Origin: a virus
Direction: 5' to 3' (one strand)
DNA length: 56,718 nt
Virus record (IMG/VR): IMGVR_UViG_3300050343_000137
Coordinates: 1 to 56,718 of that record
Notes under the pieces: generated by a model
Told to the model about the DNA's origin: nothing
What the model saw: only the letters and a program-made list of their open reading frames with translations
The model's database searches: none
Position numbers and translations under genes: made by a program
Shown: one piece after another, positions 26,811 through 56,718 of the stretch
Layout: every line of letters starts with the position of its first letter
Position numbering within the stretch: the first letter of the stretch is position 1

Positions 26811-27148
26811 ATGACAATAGCTGTATCTGATGTTATGACAATACTTTAATCAAGGAAAAATGCAACGGTGGGGTTGGAAGATACTTCTGCTGGTGAATTT
26901 TAATTAATTAAAATGGATATAGATGAACAAGCACCAATGCCTACTGAAGATGTATTTCATTTAATCCAGATAGGTACATTTTCAGGTACAGGAAGATACA
27001 AAAATATGCTTATCCAGCAATTGCAGAACAATTGGATAAACTATTCCACGATATAGATGGTGGACTTTTAGGAGAAGATGCTAAGACAGGTTCTTTGTAT
27101 CTTGCCTTAAAAGAAGTAAAAGACGACAATCCGAAACCGAGTGAATAA
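26811..27148 (+). CDS. Small fibre-region protein, EYPSIADQLD family (frameshifted)
   Basis: The C-terminus YAYPAIAEQLDKLFHDIDGG...YLALKEVKDDNPKPSE is clearly the same family as EYPSIADQLDDIFHNGLDAWKA at 32741-33035. The front part (MTIAVSDVMTIL; MDIDEQAPMPTEDV) lies in other frames; breaks near 26842-26905 and 26960-27010. This family is very common beside tail fibre genes in marine phages; its function is not known to me, perhaps fibre attachment. Start chosen by AGGAG eight bases upstream; the stop overlaps the next ATG (TAATG). Confidence 0.5.
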
Positions 27149-28050
27149 TGGTAAGTAAAATAAAAGTAGATGAAATAGAATCCAGCCAATCTGGTGGTTC
27201 TATTGCATATAATTCTTCACTAAAGTTAAAACAATATACTACTGCACAGATAGATGCTCTTACTGGTATGACTGAAGGTGAAATGGTATATGATACTGAA
27301 GCCAACAAAATTAAATTTTATATGGGAACTGCTTGGCATGTTGCTGGAGACCCACCAGTCGGCACAGCCGTAGGTGGAACTCAAACAACTTCTGGTGGAT
27401 ATAAGATACATGCTTTTACTTCCTCTACAACATTCGTTGTTTCTGACGCAGCACTTTCTTGCGACTATCTAGTAGTTGCAGGTGGAGGAGCTGGTGGAGC
27501 TAGAATAGGTGGAGGCGGAGGAGCTGGTGGATATTTAGCTGGTTCTGGAGTAACTTTTGGCATTGGAACCTATAATGTTGTTGTTGGTGGAGGAGGAGCA
27601 GGTACTGTTGCTAACAATGACCAAAGAGGTGGTAATGGTGATGATTCATCTATAAGTGGTACAGGTGTAAGCGTTACTGCAACTGGTGGTGGCGGTGGTG
27701 GCTCTGGTGATGATAGTAATAATAACGCTGAAGATGCTGGTGGTGGCGGCGGTTCTGGCGGTGGTGGCTCTTGGACAAATGGTGGTGGAGGAGCTGGTCA
27801 ATCTGGTCAAGGTAATAATGGTGGTAATGGTCACGCAAGACTAGCATCACACGCTGGTGGTGGCGGAGGAGGCAAAGGTTCTTCTGGTAATAATGGTGAA
27901 ACTAATAGCGGTGGTCATGGTGGCACAGGTTTACAAAGTAGTATATCTGGTACAAATACTTATTACGCAGGTGGTGGCGGAGGTGCTGTTATAACAAGTG
28001 GTTACACGAGAGGTTCTGCTGGAAGCGGCGGTGGTGGTATAGGAGCATAA
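27148..28050 (+). CDS. Glycine-rich tail adhesin 1
   Basis: 300 residues. Head module 1-66 (IKVDEIESSQSGGS, LKLKQYTTAQIDALTG, EMVYDTEANKIKFYMGTAWH), then a strand pair opening DYLVVAGGGAGGA, then about 180 residues of GGGG-rich sequence probably folding as packed polyglycine-II helices, as in the distal adhesins of some phages. It ends GSGGGGIGA without the usual closing strand seen in its paralogues, so its tip may be truncated. TAATG overlaps on both sides. Confidence 0.7.
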   Translation: MVSKIKVDEIESSQSGGSIAYNSSLKLKQYTTAQIDALTGMTEGEMVYDTEANKIKFYMGTAWHVAGDPPVGTAVGGTQTTSGGYKIHAFTSSTTFVVSDAALSCDYLVVAGGGAGGARIGGGGGAGGYLAGSGVTFGIGTYNVVVGGGGAGTVANNDQRGGNGDDSSISGTGVSVTATGGGGGGSGDDSNNNAEDAGGGGGSGGGGSWTNGGGGAGQSGQGNNGGNGHARLASHAGGGGGGKGSSGNNGETNSGGHGGTGLQSSISGTNTYYAGGGGGAVITSGYTRGSAGSGGGGIGA

Positions 28051-28831: not shown

Positions 28832-29822
28832 TGTCCACTCTCGAAACAAACTCTATAGGTAAATACTCTGGTAACAATGTATCAGTTGATGATAGTTTAA
28901 ATTTAAAGTCATATGACACAGCTGGTAGAAATGCACTTACATCACAAGCTGGTGATACGATATACAACTCTGACTACAGGAAAATAGATTTTTACAATGG
29001 TTCAGCTTGGGTAGCAAGTGGTGCTACTTCATGTTACAATAGAATATTTAATTATTGCTGGTGGAGGTAGTGGTGGAGGTTCTAATCAAACTGGCTCTGG
29101 TGGTGGTGGAGCTGGAGGTTATCGCAATTCTTATAACAGTGAAACTTCTGGTGCGAATAGTTCTAGTGAAACTGCTTTGACTGTTACTGATAATACAAAT
29201 CTTACTGTTACAGTTGGTGCTGGTGGACCAGCTAATACTACAAGTCAAGGTTATTCTACAAATGGATTTGATAGTGTATTTTCATCAATAACATCATTAG
29301 GTGGAGGTGCTTCTCATACAAACGCTGCTGCTAAAGCTGGTGGTTCTGGTGGTGGAGCAGGTTATCAATCATCATCTACTGCTCTTGGACAAGCAAATCA
29401 AGGTAGCAATGGTGGTGCAGGTAGAACTGGAAACCCATACGCAGGTGGTGGTGGTGGTGGAGCTGGTGCTGCTGGTTCTAAATGGTGGAAATGGTTTAGC
29501 TTCATCTATAACTAACACATCAGTCACAAGAGGTGGTGGAGGAGCTGCTGGTCATCAAGGCAGTATAACAGCAGGAACTGCTGGTACTGGTGGTGGAGGA
29601 ACACAAGGTGGAGGAAATGGTACTTCTTATACTGGTGGTGGTGGAGGTGGAACAGGTGGTAGTTCGCCGGGTAATGGAGGAAGTGGTGTCGTTATACTTA
29701 GTTATCCAAGTGATAAAACTATTTCGTTTGCTGGTGGAGCATCTAGTTCTGCTGGAGAACAAACAGTTGGTTCAAGAAAATATGTAGAAATACAAACAAG
29801 TGGAACAGTGAGCTTTGCATAA
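28831..29822 (+). CDS. Glycine-rich tail adhesin 2 (two frameshifts)
   Basis: About 330 residues. Head module (MSTLETNSIGKYSGNNVS, YNSDYRKIDFYNGSAWVASG). A frame break near 29025-29040 leads to IEYLIIAGGGSGGGSNQTG, RNSYNSETSGANSSSETALTV and a poly-Gly region. A second break near 29480 leads to NGGNGLASSITNTS and the closing strand GGSGVVILSYPSD...VEIQTSGTVSFA. Same architecture as 29822 and 30847, which makes the two breaks likely sequence errors. Confidence 0.65.
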
Positions 29823-30841
29823 TGAGTGAATTAAAAACAAATAAGATTTCAACAAATGATACAAACAATGTAGCAATAGATACTGCACTTGGATTAAAGT
29901 CATACGATACAACTGGTAGAGATGCTTTAACATCTGTTGCTGGTGATATGATTTACAATACTACTGACAATAAATTAAATTATTACAATGGTTCATCTTG
30001 GGTAGAAACAAGTTCAACACCAGCTTTTACAATTTCTTATTTAGTAATAGCAGCTGGTGGTGGTTCTCCAGCAAGTCCTAATAGAGGTGGAGCTGGTGCT
30101 GGGGGTTATAGAAATAGTTATGCTTCTGAAACTTCTGGTGCTGGAAGTTCAACAGAAACACCATTATCTTTAGCATTATCTACAAACTATACAGTAACTG
30201 TAGGTGCAGGTGGTACAGGTACTGGGAATGATTCAGTATTTGCAACTATAACATCTGATGGTGGTGGTCAAGGTGGTTCAGCTGGTGGTTCTGGTGGTGG
30301 TGGTTATTACAATAATGGTTCTGGTGGTGCAGGTACAGCTAATCAAGGTAATGCTGGTGGTAATGTATCTGGTAATGGAAATCCTTATGGTACTGGTGGA
30401 GGTGGTGGAGCTGGAGGTGCTGGTGGTACTGGAGGTGGCTCATCTGTTGGTGCTGGTGGAGTTGGTTTAGAATCTTCTATAACAGGAACAGCAACTTATC
30501 GTGCAGGTGGTGGTGGTGGTTCATCTGAAGGTGGAGGTAGAGGTTCTGGTGGTAATGGTGGTGGAGGTATAGGTTCTAACGATAGAACTAGTGGTGGCAA
30601 CAATGGTGCAGGTGGTACTAATACAGGTGGTGGAGCTGGTGGTACTTCAGGTTATCAAGGAAGTAACAATATAGTTGCTAGAAATGGTGGAAGTGGAATA
30701 GTTATTATAAGATTTCCTTTTCAATATGGTATTACCATAGGAGCAGGATTAACTGCGACAGTAGGTGCTATAGGTAATAGCACTGATAAAATAGTAACAT
30801 TTACAGAAGGTACAGGAAATGTTAGTTTTACAGAAATATAA
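29822..30841 (+). CDS. Glycine-rich tail adhesin 3 (intact)
   Basis: 339 residues, the best intact member of the array. Head module 1-65 (MSELKTNKISTNDTNNVA, LGLKSYDTTGRDALTSVAGD, YYNGSSWVE); linking strand ISYLVIAAGGG; RNSYASETSGAGSSTETPLSL with YTVTVGAGGTG; about 150 residues of Gly-rich repeats; closing strand GGSGIVIIRFPFQ and a final beta segment ending GNVSFTEI. The Gly-rich body probably forms the receptor-binding tip. Confidence 0.75.
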   Translation: MSELKTNKISTNDTNNVAIDTALGLKSYDTTGRDALTSVAGDMIYNTTDNKLNYYNGSSWVETSSTPAFTISYLVIAAGGGSPASPNRGGAGAGGYRNSYASETSGAGSSTETPLSLALSTNYTVTVGAGGTGTGNDSVFATITSDGGGQGGSAGGSGGGGYYNNGSGGAGTANQGNAGGNVSGNGNPYGTGGGGGAGGAGGTGGGSSVGAGGVGLESSITGTATYRAGGGGGSSEGGGRGSGGNGGGGIGSNDRTSGGNNGAGGTNTGGGAGGTSGYQGSNNIVARNGGSGIVIIRFPFQYGITIGAGLTATVGAIGNSTDKIVTFTEGTGNVSFTEI

Positions 30842-33756: not shown

Positions 33757-34671
33757 ATGGGTAGAAGAAGATTCGGTCATATAGGTACCAAAGTAAAAGA
33801 TATTTCGCAAACTAACGCAAACAACTCTGGTATTTTTGATATTAATGAAGTAGCAATATTAGTAGCAGAAGATAAATGGAGAAAGTTCAACACACAAGAT
33901 ATAGAGTATCTAGTTATATCTGGTGGTGGAGGTTCTTGGAATGGAGGAGGAGCTGGTGGTTATTTTAAAACCAACACAGTATCTTTAACCTCTGGAGACA
34001 CATTTACAGTTACAGTTGGAAATGGTGGAGCTTCTCATTCAAACGGCGGAACATCCAAAATAGAAGATTCTAGTAGCAATGTCGTTGATAGCGGTAATGC
34101 AACTATGGCAGGTGGTGTTCGTGGTGGTTCTCCGGGTGGTGGAGGATTAAGCGGTAATGTAGGTTCTGGAGGTGGCTCTGGACAAGGTGGTGGTACAGGT
34201 TCTTTAGGTGGTAATGGTGGCTCTGGTACAAACTCTTATACAGCAGGTGGTGGAGCTGGTGGTGCTGTAGGTAACGGCAGTAATGGTGGAGGAGCTTGGA
34301 ATACTGGCGGTAATGGTGGTGGCGGAACAGGTGCATTTTCAACTTGGGCTTCTGGAGCTGGTGTAGGTGGTTCTGGTGGTAATTTTTGTGGTGGAGGTGC
34401 TGGAGGTTCTACTTCTGGTAATCATTCTAATGGAGGCTCTGGTGGTGGAGGTATGGGTAGACCCGATAACTCTGGTCACAACGGAGGAACAAACACAGGT
34501 GGTGGCGGTGGTGGAGAAGTTAATCTTGGGAACCAAGGAGGTTCTGGAATGGTATATGTTAGAATACCAAGTGATAAAACATTATCTGCTACAACTGGAA
34601 GCCCAACAGTAGGAACTGATTCCAACTATAGATATTATGGTTGGACTGGAAGTGGGAGTTTTACAGTATAA
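33757..34671 (+). CDS. Glycine-rich tail adhesin 5
   Basis: 304 residues. N-terminus differs from the other adhesins (MGRRRFGHIGTKVKDISQ, ANNSGIFDINEVAILVAEDKW), so it must attach differently. It then joins the common body: IEYLVISGGGGSWNGG, YFKTNTVSLTSGDTFTVTVGNGG, a Gly-rich region with FCGGGAGG, closing strand GGSGMVYVRIPSDKTL and SGSFTV. An example of one adhesin body on a second type of head module. Confidence 0.7.
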   Translation: MGRRRFGHIGTKVKDISQTNANNSGIFDINEVAILVAEDKWRKFNTQDIEYLVISGGGGSWNGGGAGGYFKTNTVSLTSGDTFTVTVGNGGASHSNGGTSKIEDSSSNVVDSGNATMAGGVRGGSPGGGGLSGNVGSGGGSGQGGGTGSLGGNGGSGTNSYTAGGGAGGAVGNGSNGGGAWNTGGNGGGGTGAFSTWASGAGVGGSGGNFCGGGAGGSTSGNHSNGGSGGGGMGRPDNSGHNGGTNTGGGGGGEVNLGNQGGSGMVYVRIPSDKTLSATTGSPTVGTDSNYRYYGWTGSGSFTV

Positions 34672-51486: not shown

Positions 51487-51515
51487 TTGCTTCATTCCCC
51501 ACTCTGTGGTATACT
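51487..51515 (+). promoter_or_regulatory. Sigma-70 promoter of a small RNA
   Basis: TTGCTT (51487-51492), 17-bp spacer ending TGG, TATACT (51510-51515). Predicted start near 51522. The nearest plus-strand gene begins 700 bases further on beyond a terminator, so it appears to drive a short transcript. Confidence 0.7.
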
Positions 51516-53729: not shown

Positions 53730-53891
53730 TTATTTATATAATCCCCAGTTAACCATGTCCCTCACGAATGAGGCGGCACTCTCGAAGTGCTCGTTCCACC
53801 CTGCGGCTTCCTCGCAAGCGTAGAGCGAACAGTATTCACCGCAACCTTCGTCCATTGCGTCTAATACCATTGTGAATTCTTTAATTTTCAT
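53730..53891 (-). CDS. 53-residue protein
   Basis: MKIKEFTMVLDAMDEGCGEY, then CSLYACEEAAGWNEHFES and FVRDMVNWGLYK. Ribosome site AAGGAGA at 53896-53902 on this strand and the strong TTGCAT promoter directly upstream. Three Cys, acidic. The stop codon lies in a hairpin (AACTGGG/CCCAGTT). Function unknown; an early takeover protein would fit the promoter. Confidence 0.6.
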   Translation of the reverse strand: MKIKEFTMVLDAMDEGCGEYCSLYACEEAAGWNEHFESAASFVRDMVNWGLYK

Positions 53892-53908
53892 TGTGTCTCC
53901 TTGTTTGT

Positions 53909-53948
53909 CTTATACTATAAGTATATCATATAATCTAAATTAATGCAA
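53909..53948 (-). promoter_or_regulatory. Promoter-operator unit 1
   Basis: TTGCAT (53948-53943), 17-bp spacer ending in TATGA, TATACT (53925-53920), overlapped downstream by the dyad CTTATA-N-TATAAG (53921-53909). Drives the 53-residue gene at 53891. Two further copies: 55089-55128 and 56112-56151. Confidence 0.8.
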
Positions 53949-53965
53949 ATCAAATAGAAGATTTT

Positions 53966-54265
53966 TTAAACTTTTTTTATGTTCTGGAAATCTTCTAAAG
54001 TGTTGGTAAAAGTCCATTCAGATTTTACAATTTTAGCCATAATAGAATCTTCACCTAATTGCCACGCTATAAAATTAATATAATCTTTAATGGCTTCTGC
54101 TTGTTCTGCTGTGTCTGTTACCGTTGTAAACTCAATAGACTCTTCAGCAATACCTAACCATGAACCGTTACATTCTTTAGTCGTCCAACCGCTAACCATC
54201 TTATTAATACCATCGTTAGCATCTTTAATAACTGCTGGTACTGTTCTTAATGTTAATTCGTACAT
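53966..54265 (-). CDS. 99-residue hypothetical protein
   Basis: Start at ATG 54265 chosen for GGAAGGA seven bases upstream (MYELTLRTVPAVIKDAND). MVSGWTTKECNGSWLGIAEE, FTTVTDTAEQAEAIKDYINF. Looks like a small alpha-beta domain. Follows the 54-residue gene on the same transcript. Not recognised. Confidence 0.55.
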   Translation of the reverse strand: MYELTLRTVPAVIKDANDGINKMVSGWTTKECNGSWLGIAEESIEFTTVTDTAEQAEAIKDYINFIAWQLGEDSIMAKIVKSEWTFTNTLEDFQNIKKV

Positions 54266-54317
54266 TTTTTGTCCTTCCGTTTTTTTGGTGGGGGTAAATA
54301 CCCCCCCCGTTATTTTG

Positions 54318-54482
54318 TTACGCGTTGGTAACAAATGTAATCATAATGAACGTAAGAGACAGCATGTCCAAAATAAATTGGCTGTAGTCTCTTCTTAGTC
54401 CAAGTCCATAACCCTTGGTATCTGTAAAATACCAGTTGCCACGGTCAGTCTTTTTGTATCCTGTAATTGTTTGTTTTTTCAT
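54318..54482 (-). CDS. 54-residue protein with C-terminal membrane segment
   Basis: MKKQTITGYKKTDRGNWYFT, a basic middle (YGLGLRRDYSQ), then FILDMLSLTFIMITFVTNA, a transmembrane helix. The consensus promoter ends 10 bases upstream. There is no clear ribosome site, so it may be translated nearly leaderless. A possible small early membrane protein. Confidence 0.5.
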   Translation of the reverse strand: MKKQTITGYKKTDRGNWYFTDTKGYGLGLRRDYSQFILDMLSLTFIMITFVTNA

Positions 54483-54491
54483 TATGTATAT

Positions 54492-54520
54492 ACTATATCA
54501 CTAAATGTTATTTATGTCAA
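54492..54520 (-). promoter_or_regulatory. Consensus sigma-70 promoter
   Basis: TTGACA (54520-54515), 17-bp spacer ending TGA, TATAGT (54497-54492). Perfect -35 and extended -10; the strongest promoter in the window by consensus. Lacks the CTTATA dyad of the TTGCAT promoters, so probably independently regulated. Confidence 0.75.
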
Positions 54521-54618
54521 ATCCTAAAAGCCTGTAAACACTGGGGTTATAAAATTATTTTATTTTTTTTTCTAAAATCAGTAAATTTTTTTAAAACTTG
54601 TCACTAGTAACTTATGTA

Positions 54619-54852
54619 ATGAAAAATACTATAAAAATCTTAGTCACCGATATAAAGGAACTAAGTAGCCTACACAAGCAAGCGTTGACTATCTTTCACG
54701 ATAATTATGATAGATACGATTTTATTATGACAGCTCTTTCATTTGTATTAATTGCAAGTGGATTTGTTTTAATAGGTCTTAACTTTCAAATTACAGGAAG
54801 GCTCGTTCTCGGTCTTGCTCTATACCTATTCTTTTGGTGGTCTTGTTACTAG
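54619..54852 (+). CDS. Putative small membrane protein
   Basis: 77 residues from ATG 54619: MKNTIKILVTDIKELSSLHK, a helical region, IMTALSFVLIASGFVLIGL and LVLGLALYLFFWWSC as two membrane helices. On the plus strand among minus-strand genes, without a clear ribosome site or promoter. Moderate doubt. Confidence 0.4.
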   Translation: MKNTIKILVTDIKELSSLHKQALTIFHDNYDRYDFIMTALSFVLIASGFVLIGLNFQITGRLVLGLALYLFFWWSCY

Positions 54853-54879
54853 ACCATCAAAGGAAATAGCAAACCCAAC

Positions 54880-55083
54880 ATATTGTGGTACTACATATAG
54901 TGGTACTACATATGGGATGCCCGTCTAGGTCTGGAGACCCAATGGAATTTTCTTGATTCCCTCCGGAGAAACATTACAAACTCGTATATGCTCCGGAGGA
55001 TTTTCACAAGGTTTCAAGATTGTGAAAGTCGGGTACTTCAGAGCCTCTGTGCGAGGGCTATTTCCCAGTCTGTCTTCACAACC
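54880..55083 (-). ncRNA. Candidate structured RNA from promoter unit 2
   Basis: Expected transcript from the promoter at 55089-55128 has no credible ORF but strong hairpins: AGC-CTC/GAG-GCT (about 55042-55059), TTTCACAA (55009-55002 read on minus) with TTGTGAAA, a 9-10-bp stem formed by two CTCCGGAG sites (54991-55000 and 54959-54968), and GGTCT-CC-AGACC (54928-54939). Then repeated TACTACATAT sites. No clear terminator. Alternatively a long leader for the genes at 54482. Confidence 0.4.
54886..54913. repeat. Direct repeat TGGTACTACATAT (15-bp period)
   Basis: Two copies at 54886-54898 and 54901-54913, related to CCACTACATATAGTGG at 51248. Together they look like operator half-sites of the same regulator. 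Confidence 0.5.
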
Positions 55084-55088
55084 TTAAC

Positions 55089-55128
55089 CTTATATTATAA
55101 GTATATCATACCTTTACAAATAATGCAA
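55089..55128 (-). promoter_or_regulatory. Promoter-operator unit 2
   Basis: TTGCAT (55128-55123), 17-bp spacer ending TATGA, TATACT (55105-55100), dyad CTTATA-N-TATAAG (55101-55089). Same as units 1 and 3. It lies between the ArdC-like gene and the RNA region. Confidence 0.75.
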
Positions 55129-55158
55129 ATCATTTATAAAGTTTTTTTTGAAGCTGGG

Positions 55159-56092
55159 TTATATTTCAAACCCAGTTTCAATGTCGTCTAAGATTCTATT
55201 TGCAGTCTTTTGAATTCTGCTTAGAGATTCTTTAACTAATTTCTTAGTGTCTTCTTTGCCCCAGCTTGCGATATAACCGAAGCTGTAAAGCGTCTTCGTC
55301 GCTATGGATGCCTAGCGCTTCAGCCACTATGAAGGCGACGCCTTCGGCTTCTGTCTCATACCTAGCACGGTTTTGGCGATAGTCTTTAATATCTGCGTGC
55401 ATAATCATATGAGCCACTTCGTGAATTAAAGTTTTAACTTTATATCCGAAGTCTGCGTTTTCATCTATAACAATCTGCTTCTCTTCGTGTGAGCAATAAC
55501 CGTCTGCGCCTCGTGCGTTACCCATCACAACTTTGAAGCCATGAACGTCTGCTAATCTAATGAAGTCTGCAAATACATTAAAGTCTGCGTTCGCCACTAC
55601 ATCTTTGACCATTGAAAATGTTGTTGTTAATTCATCACCTTCTGTTTGATTAATTCCAAACACTGGCACCGACATGAACCCCATCATTTTTTTAGCTATT
55701 CTATGTGAAGAGTTAACCCCACAAAAATTTGTTCTAGTGAATTTATTCCATATAGTCTTACGACCAAAAGAAGTACATCCTTTTTGTATGCATACAAAGC
55801 CCATTCTAGGAGCTAATATCCACATAGCCTTTTCACCAGCTTTAATTGTTCTGCCGACTTTTTCCCACTGCTTAGCACCACGTACAGAAGATGGAAGATT
55901 GTCCCAGCCTCTTAATATAGATTCAAGCCAAATCAACTGGGTATTATTCCAGCTGTATGCCTTTTCACCTTTAACAAAGTGTAAGTAGCTTTTCCAGTCG
56001 TTAGATTCAATCAATGCATCAATAGAGTTTTCTAGAGATGCCGATATATTCTCAACAATTTCTTGATTGCTAAGTTTATTTTTAGTAGTCAT
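55159..56092 (-). CDS. ArdC-like antirestriction protein with zincin domain (one frameshift)
   Basis: The open frame ends at 55244 with unlike residues. Restoring one base near 55275 continues as FGYIASWGKEDTKKLVKESL and RIQKTANRIL, a normal ArdC ending, stop 55159-55161. N-terminal domain SWNNTQLIWLESILRGW, AKQWEKVGRTIKAGEKAMWI (ArdC, ssDNA binding), C-terminal domain with HEVAHM at 224-229 and YETEAEGVAFIVA (zincin metallopeptidase). ArdC proteins protect incoming DNA from restriction. Early promoter supports early expression. Confidence 0.7.
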
Positions 56093-56111
56093 TTTTAACC
56101 TTTCGTGTTGT

Positions 56112-56151
56112 CTTATAATATAAGTATATCATATATAGCAAATTAATGCAA
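56112..56151 (-). promoter_or_regulatory. Promoter-operator unit 3
   Basis: TTGCAT (56151-56146), 17-bp spacer ending TATGA, TATACT (56128-56123), dyad CTTATA-N-TATAAG (56124-56112). 20 bases before the ArdC-like start at 56092. Confidence 0.8.
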
Positions 56152-56173: not shown

Positions 56174-56199
56174 AAAAAAAAGCTGGTACTAAGACCAGC
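56174..56199 (-). terminator. Rho-independent terminator
   Basis: On the minus strand GCTGGT (56199-56194), loop CTTAGT, ACCAGC (56187-56182), then T8 (56181-56174). It ends the gene at 56209-56457 and isolates promoter unit 3. Confidence 0.85.
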
Positions 56200-56477: not shown

Positions 56478-56636
56478 TTATCGCCTTTTAATTACTTGCT
56501 TAGGTAGTACAAATATAATCATGTACATAAAGCCAAGCCACAAGGGTAGCAAAGCTAAATCTAAGCCGTTGAAAATTCCATCACCAGTCAAATCAAAACT
56601 GTTAATGAGATAGTCATTGCAATATTGTTCTTTCAA
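56478..56636 (-). CDS. Small membrane protein with a dockerin-like loop
   Basis: TTG 56636 is preferred: GGAGGAG lies six bases upstream; the ATG at 56669 lies inside the preceding gene. NSFDLTGDGIFNGLDLALLP shows a D-x-T-G-D-G-x6-D calcium-loop pattern as in dockerins/EF-hands, then WLGFMYMIIFVLPKQVIKRR is a membrane helix with a basic tail. 52-53 residues. Confidence 0.5.
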   Translation of the reverse strand: MKEQYCNDYLINSFDLTGDGIFNGLDLALLPLWLGFMYMIIFVLPKQVIKRR

Positions 56637-56637
56637 A

Positions 56638-56718
56638 CTAACTCCTCCATTTTGAAATAGTATCTTCATTTAATAACATTGTTAAGGCACTTAGATAACC
56701 TTCGTCATAGTAAATATC
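56638..56718 (-). CDS. C-terminal end of a further minus-strand gene (partial)
   Basis: In the frame ending at TAG 56640-56638 the sequence reads DIYYDEGYLSALTMLLNEDT and ISKWRS. It continues beyond the window. The short segment looks like real protein (helical, acidic), but cannot be named. Confidence 0.4.
   Translation of the reverse strand, partial: DIYYDEGYLSALTMLLNEDTISKWRS

Follow-up and report, generated by a model that had tools for sequence, protein, structure and literature searches.

Near-identical extended -10 promoters at the end of a virus fragment probably belong to a one-directional array that may express structured RNAs beside an ArdC-like protein

The stretch of DNA analysed here (the window, 56,718 nt) is a linear virus fragment. 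Genes for head, tail, lysis and exonuclease functions lie on its plus strand, and its right end is a block of minus-strand genes and promoters (Table 1). No near-identical phage was present among 50,697 phage records. Searches for the host with TerS, a 531-aa protein and the ArdC-like protein returned distant matches or none, and no bacterial genome with the RNA described below or a close ArdC was found in the search. The ArdC-like protein scores 26.5 bits against PF08401 and 27.8 bits against PF06114, both above the cut-offs, and shows an HExxH-type HEVAH...H motif in alignment A1; the combination of ArdcN and C-terminal metallopeptidase domains makes it a candidate anti-restriction protein. 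Promoter unit 3 lies 30 nt ahead of its gene, and no ORF lies behind unit 2. In the relative L017 the homolog of the last ORF of the window lies ahead of the ArdC cassette and has further promoters before it, and therefore the promoter array is probably cut by the end of the record; only its last units, three or four promoters, are visible in this genome. A match to the L2 ribosomal leader at 54266-54333 was rejected as a chance match (21 bits, with 38 required). Elsewhere in the window, three paralogs (27148-28050, 29822-30841 and 33757-34671) all match phrog_2295, a family of unknown function.

Table 1. Features of the minus-strand block, in window coordinates
Feature	Coordinates	Strand	Remarks
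53-aa ORF behind unit 1	53730..53891	-	Start codon 28 nt past -10; in L017 and L019 the same promoter precedes the orthologs
Unit 1, extended -10 promoter of the 53-aa gene	53909..53948	-	-35 TTGCAT 53943-53948; -10 TATACT 53920-53925; dyad 53909-53921; predicted +1 A at 53913
99-aa ORF downstream of the dyad-less promoter	53966..54265	-	Conserved in L017, L019 and L020
Dyad-less promoter TTGACA-N17(TG)-TATAGT, between units 2 and 1	54492..54520	-	Ahead of 54-aa and 99-aa ORFs
Unit-2 RNA, family F7, about 230 nt	54866..55093	-	3' end approximate; predicted start at 55093
CTCCGGAGcAT-N9-TAATG element	54972..54998	-	Inside the unit-2 RNA; second copy from 53710 downwards
Unit 2, extended -10 promoter ahead of non-coding RNA	55089..55128	-	-35 55123-55128; -10 55100-55105; dyad 55089-55101; predicted +1 A at 55093
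ArdC-like protein, 282 aa	55244..56092	-	ArdcN domain and Peptidase_M78/IrrE-like metallopeptidase region
Unit 3, extended -10 promoter of the ArdC-like gene	56112..56151	-	-35 56146-56151; -10 56123-56128; dyad 56112-56124; predicted +1 A at 56116
Hairpin GCTGGTCTTAGTACCAGC followed by T8, putative terminator of the preceding gene	56182..56199	-	Adjoins unit 3 on its upstream side
Last ORF before the record end	56478..56669	-	Homolog of the L017 52-aa ORF that follows RNA family F6

Read on the minus strand, each unit consists of TTGCAT, exactly 17 nt with a terminal TATGA, and TATACT, and contains a perfect dyad CTTATA-N-TATAAG (CTTATANTATAAG) that begins at the C of TATACT. An earlier note on this DNA had described three near-identical units with identical spacing and a dyad overlapping the -10, and a pattern search recovered all three at the same positions. 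The exact pattern TTGCAT-N17-TATACT occurs at three sites in the 56,718-base record and the exact dyad at three places in the whole 56.7 kb, in both cases the units themselves; a shuffle control of the dyad was run at two mismatches (6 matches, about 9 expected) and is uninformative on exact copies. Over 63 nt the copies are 75-87% identical to the first copy and share an upstream TGATTTGCATTA and an upstream A-tract. The units had also been read as promoters on one strand, ahead of the 53-aa gene, an RNA region and the ArdC-like gene as members of one set, and this part of the note is borne out. TATGA-TATACT forms an extended -10 (TGN) in all three. A promoter score combining -35, -10, extended -10 and spacing was at least 13 at six window sites and at 0-1 sites in mononucleotide shuffles.

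The same build recurs in relatives, contigs whose ArdC is 79-80% (L001/L017 and L002/L019), 67% (L003/L020) or, in the more distant L004/L021-L022 and L145/L146-L148, about 50% identical. Promoters of this type stand in a row in the early region of L017 (11), L019 (13) and L020 (14), all in one direction, and each is followed by a small gene or an ORF-free stretch. In L019, 15 sites within 12.7 kb scored at least 13; L020 had 17 such sites in 18.3 kb and L145 had 12 in 19 kb, where each shuffle gave 0-1. Pattern matches divided between the strands 16:2 in G003 and 15:1 in G002, and the backward pattern gave none in either. The distant relatives have similar promoters with TTGACA, which in L145 lie on both strands. 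The consensus of 46 promoters reads A-N-TTGCAT, a spacer with partly conserved CAA, TRTGA (T18 in 89% and A19 in 72% of the related set), TATAMT and, 6-7 nt past the -10, a conserved TA that we take as -1/+1; since the promoters were chosen partly on TTG, TG and the hexamers, only the other positions of this consensus are independent evidence. A loose promoter pattern applied to viral contigs gave more than 120 stretches, nearly all single matches, and these were left out of the analysis.

We consider it likely that a single early promoter, very strong, factor-independent and served by a host sigma70-type RNA polymerase, is repeated in the units, which are set in an array of single-gene cassettes. 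Such a promoter would comprise the upstream A-tract, TTGCAT, the 17-bp spacer and the extended -10 TRTGA-TATAMT, and initiation would take place at the A of the conserved TA, 6-7 nt downstream of the -10. About a dozen single-gene cassettes would lie at one end of the genome and point in one direction, three of them in the window before the cut, and each would yield either a structured non-coding RNA, as in the case of unit 2, or a small protein, among them the ArdC-like anti-restriction candidate and the 53-aa protein. The conserved T(-1)A(+1) falls within the right arm of the dyad (TATAAG), while the left arm takes in the last bases of the -10 with the AT-rich DNA that follows. CTTATANTATAAG would combine the edge of the -10 with TATAAG, the first bases to be transcribed, and would most simply be easily melted initiation DNA kept in duplicated promoters and not an operator. 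The -35 of this clade counts against such a promoter, as TTGCAT departs from TTGACA, though the distant relatives do have TTGACA.

Arrays of strong early promoters are already known. In the Kayvirus vB_SauM-515A1, 58 early promoters have been measured; they carry TTGACW, TRTGN and TATANT, and transcription begins 6 bp further on (PMC7698491). In both cases there are many near-identical sigma70-type promoters that combine TRTGN with TATANT and with a start, predicted in the present case, 6 bp past the -10. TATGA conforms to TRTGN in all three units, TATACT conforms to TATANT in all three units and TATAMT does so in most of the 46 related promoters, and the 17-bp spacing falls within 16-18 bp; the hexamer compared with TTGACW is TTGCAT in this clade and TTGACA in distant relatives. 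The Kayvirus promoters are early and driven by the host polymerase, two properties that we infer here, the timing from the arrangement and from ArdC. The present array differs in its TTGCAT, in a partly conserved spacer, in its mostly single small-gene or RNA cassettes and in several non-coding units; no sequence-level relation was found or is claimed. It is the RNA content of the array that could be new. Cluster K mycobacteriophages carry short repeats (SAS/ESAS), some with inverted repeats, before many small genes, and their function is unsettled (PMC3203893). SAS lie at start codons (GGGATAGGAGCCC), whereas the present repeats are promoter elements, and GGGATAGGAGCCC had no match in the window at up to two mismatches.

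The earlier note had gone further and proposed that the dyad is an operator defining the set, so that a phage or host repressor on CTTATANTATAAG, bound over the start, would shut down the 53-aa gene, the ArdC gene and the unit-2 RNA at once. This proposal accords with a perfect dyad at fixed spacing in all three units and with a variable central base, as in many symmetric operators. L019 also retains the exact dyad in all three orthologous promoters (ArdC, unit 2 and 53-aa) and L017 in two of the three, with spacers that partly vary, which hints at some constraint beyond melting. In L020, however, the dyad is replaced while -35 and -10 are intact. Conservation of the dyad holds in orthologous promoters of two relatives and breaks down in the third, and loss of the dyad with -35 and -10 kept is the very result that the earlier note had named as fatal to its idea.

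Across the arrays the exact dyad is confined to 3 of the 13 promoters of L019, 2 of the 11 of L017 and none of the 14 of L020, and a dyad-less promoter stands between units 2 and 1. Pairing between the halves was nominally above expectation when one centre was chosen (128 of 270 pairs in 45 promoters against 111 expected, p ~0.001-0.007, with orthologs included and hence not independent). With the best of 15 centres, 46 non-redundant promoters compared with swapped halves gave a maximum z of 2.4 and p 0.12, and 25 promoters of the more distant relatives gave p 0.89 with a free centre. A scan of 25 proteins, of which 15 come from the early region of L020, detected no HTH domain, and the 20-mer TGATATACTTATANTATAAG occurs in about six unrelated viral contexts as well. 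The operator model is weak because the dyad is absent from most array promoters, pairing is not significant with the centre free (p 0.12 and 0.89), the word recurs in unrelated contigs and no HTH protein was seen among the 25 scanned; we regard it as unlikely, and a repressor would probably not be involved. The retention in close orthologs could still reflect a repressor acting on a subset of promoters or a minor role of the dyad. A separate palindrome, ACTTGTTACTAGTAATAAGT, is found at L020:16488-16510 and in degenerate form at window 54598-54620, and has a better operator shape than the CTTATANTATAAG dyad.

Two other readings of the dyad fare worse. A palindrome could provide a -10 on both strands and thereby convergent or bidirectional promoters, and the plus strand does contain TTGTCT-N18-TATAAT at 53905-53934; however, this -35 lies outside the sequence shared by the units (it is TAACCT in unit 2), no gene follows in the plus direction and the motif falls in the spacer, which makes a bidirectional function very improbable. 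Hardly any credence attaches to an N4-like DNA-structure promoter element (a cruciform, or a hairpin on entering DNA) that a phage polymerase would recognise: the dyad could form a 3-nt loop on a 5-bp stem, and the copies CTTGT-TAT-ACAAG and CTTGT-TTT-ACAAG differ yet keep pairing, but array-wide covariation is not significant, the units have a full -35 and extended -10, a build unlike that of N4 virion-polymerase promoters, and the largest ORFs tested in the window gave tail/structural-like proteins or no match. A covarying cruciform dyad had looked promising by eye and at one centre, and failed once the centre was left free.

The stretch behind unit 2 is ORF-free in all frames beyond short ones. 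Compared with L019, identity is 98.7% over its first 75 nt and 90% over its full length, against 78% for the adjoining ArdC gene. Its fold has a z of -3.3 against 200 dinucleotide-preserving shuffles, and a long stem closing around CCCTCGCACAGAGG is predicted in the 5' part. The structure is less secure than the conservation because three close sequences give little covariation. From its sequence, unit 2 would appear to head an RNA gene of the array. A repeated element CTCCGGAGTAT-N9-(C)TAATGG is found at window 54996 (-) and 53708 (-), at L017 1506, 5189 and 6193 and at L020 6918, 7363, 7393, 11493, 15462 and 15491; it lies on the early-gene strand, mostly behind genes or within RNAs.

Many array promoters of the relatives likewise precede long, conserved ORF-free stretches. 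In family F6, which covaries strongly in five genomes (L017, L019, L020, L021 and L146), 14 pairs form three helices with all cells paired, and 8 of the 14 pairs are changed on both sides, against no two-sided changes in slid controls; the slid control is biased in favour of the helices, since these were defined on the very sequences compared, while the two-sided changes are independent of this. Family F1, about 465 nt in three genomes with a mean column identity of 92%, has a closed multi-branch fold of 137 predicted pairs; 18 of these are two-sided, and at 7 one sequence breaks the pair or has a gap. Two-sided pairs number 7 in F3 and 8 in F4. The Rfam gathering score was reached at none of five loci in the relatives, and the window stretch gave one weak match at chance level. 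F1, F6 and F7 had no match in the 50,697 phage records, and words from F1 and F6 were found, among viral contigs, in this group only. A short RNA module, GGTTGA..GAAGCC..ATGAGCGATGAGG..GGACGCTCGGCTTC, occurs at L017:2040-2100, L019:11416-11350, L020:12369-12430 and L145:12166 (-); it fronts different larger RNAs in each genome, as though modules had been shuffled.

A further member of the array in the relatives is a lone 82-nt tRNA-like domain of tmRNA (L017:3673-3754, L019:8384-8464 on the minus strand, and L020:13942-14023), which matches RF00023 with E 1e-10 to 8e-13. The domain has G3-U70, A73, CGN in place of CCA, and a P2 helix with a short-loop cap. With 32-39 bits it stays below the gathering score of tmRNA (47), which is to be expected of a domain that lacks the rest of the molecule. 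The domain is absent at the corresponding place in the window, where about 20 nt separate the two ORFs. In another RNA, an ORF of 39-40 aa has TPLA at its end, and CTTCGGAGG...TTGGCAACAGAA comes after it (L019:8901-9177 on the minus strand, L017:2791-3100, L020:13164-13440, and also L020:7519-7677 on the minus strand). The CTTCGGAGG...TTGGCAACAGAA stretch resembles the 3' end of alphaproteobacterial tmRNA, the matches being weak (21.7 and 24.3 bits), and this RNA may be a second tmRNA-like piece.

Searching the literature on phage early RNA arrays and on phage tmRNA, under those words, brought up nothing. To our knowledge, an early phage region in which several promoters serve large conserved structured RNAs and not proteins has not been described. 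The marine methylophage Melnitz has a two-piece tmRNA (PMC9004378). Melnitz and the present group have in common a marine phage and a tmRNA-derived RNA behind an early promoter, but L017, L019 and L020 have a solitary tRNA-like domain whose mRNA-like counterpart is missing from the locus, and the possible second piece (L019 8901-9177) is a weak match. GOLLD and ROOL are large, ornate structured phage RNAs of unknown function (PMC12286853). The present RNAs are likewise large, structured and phage-encoded; they differ in being smaller than GOLLD and ROOL, several per genome and each behind the same early promoter, with no Rfam gathering-score match.

On balance we lean, with limited confidence, towards the view that these phages run host takeover largely through RNA: a one-directional array of about a dozen promoters would express at least six undescribed structured RNAs (70-470 nt), including a free alanine-type tmRNA tRNA-like domain, beside anti-restriction and small proteins, and unit 2 would be among the RNA genes. 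Any particular role for the RNAs, for instance as decoys of host RNA-binding or translation factors, would be a guess. If real, this array would provide a small collection of RNA tools for host takeover that are open to testing, and the promoter tag TTGCAT-N17-TRTGATATAMT points straight to the 5' end of each RNA.

One more promoter of the window is opposed to the early block and directed towards terS. It lies at 51487-51515 (+), reads TTGC-N-ATTCCCCACTCTGTGG-TATACT and has an unusually conserved spacer; the same terS-facing promoter is present at L017 8399 (-), L019 3449 (+) and L023 14149 (+), and may produce an antisense RNA to terS.
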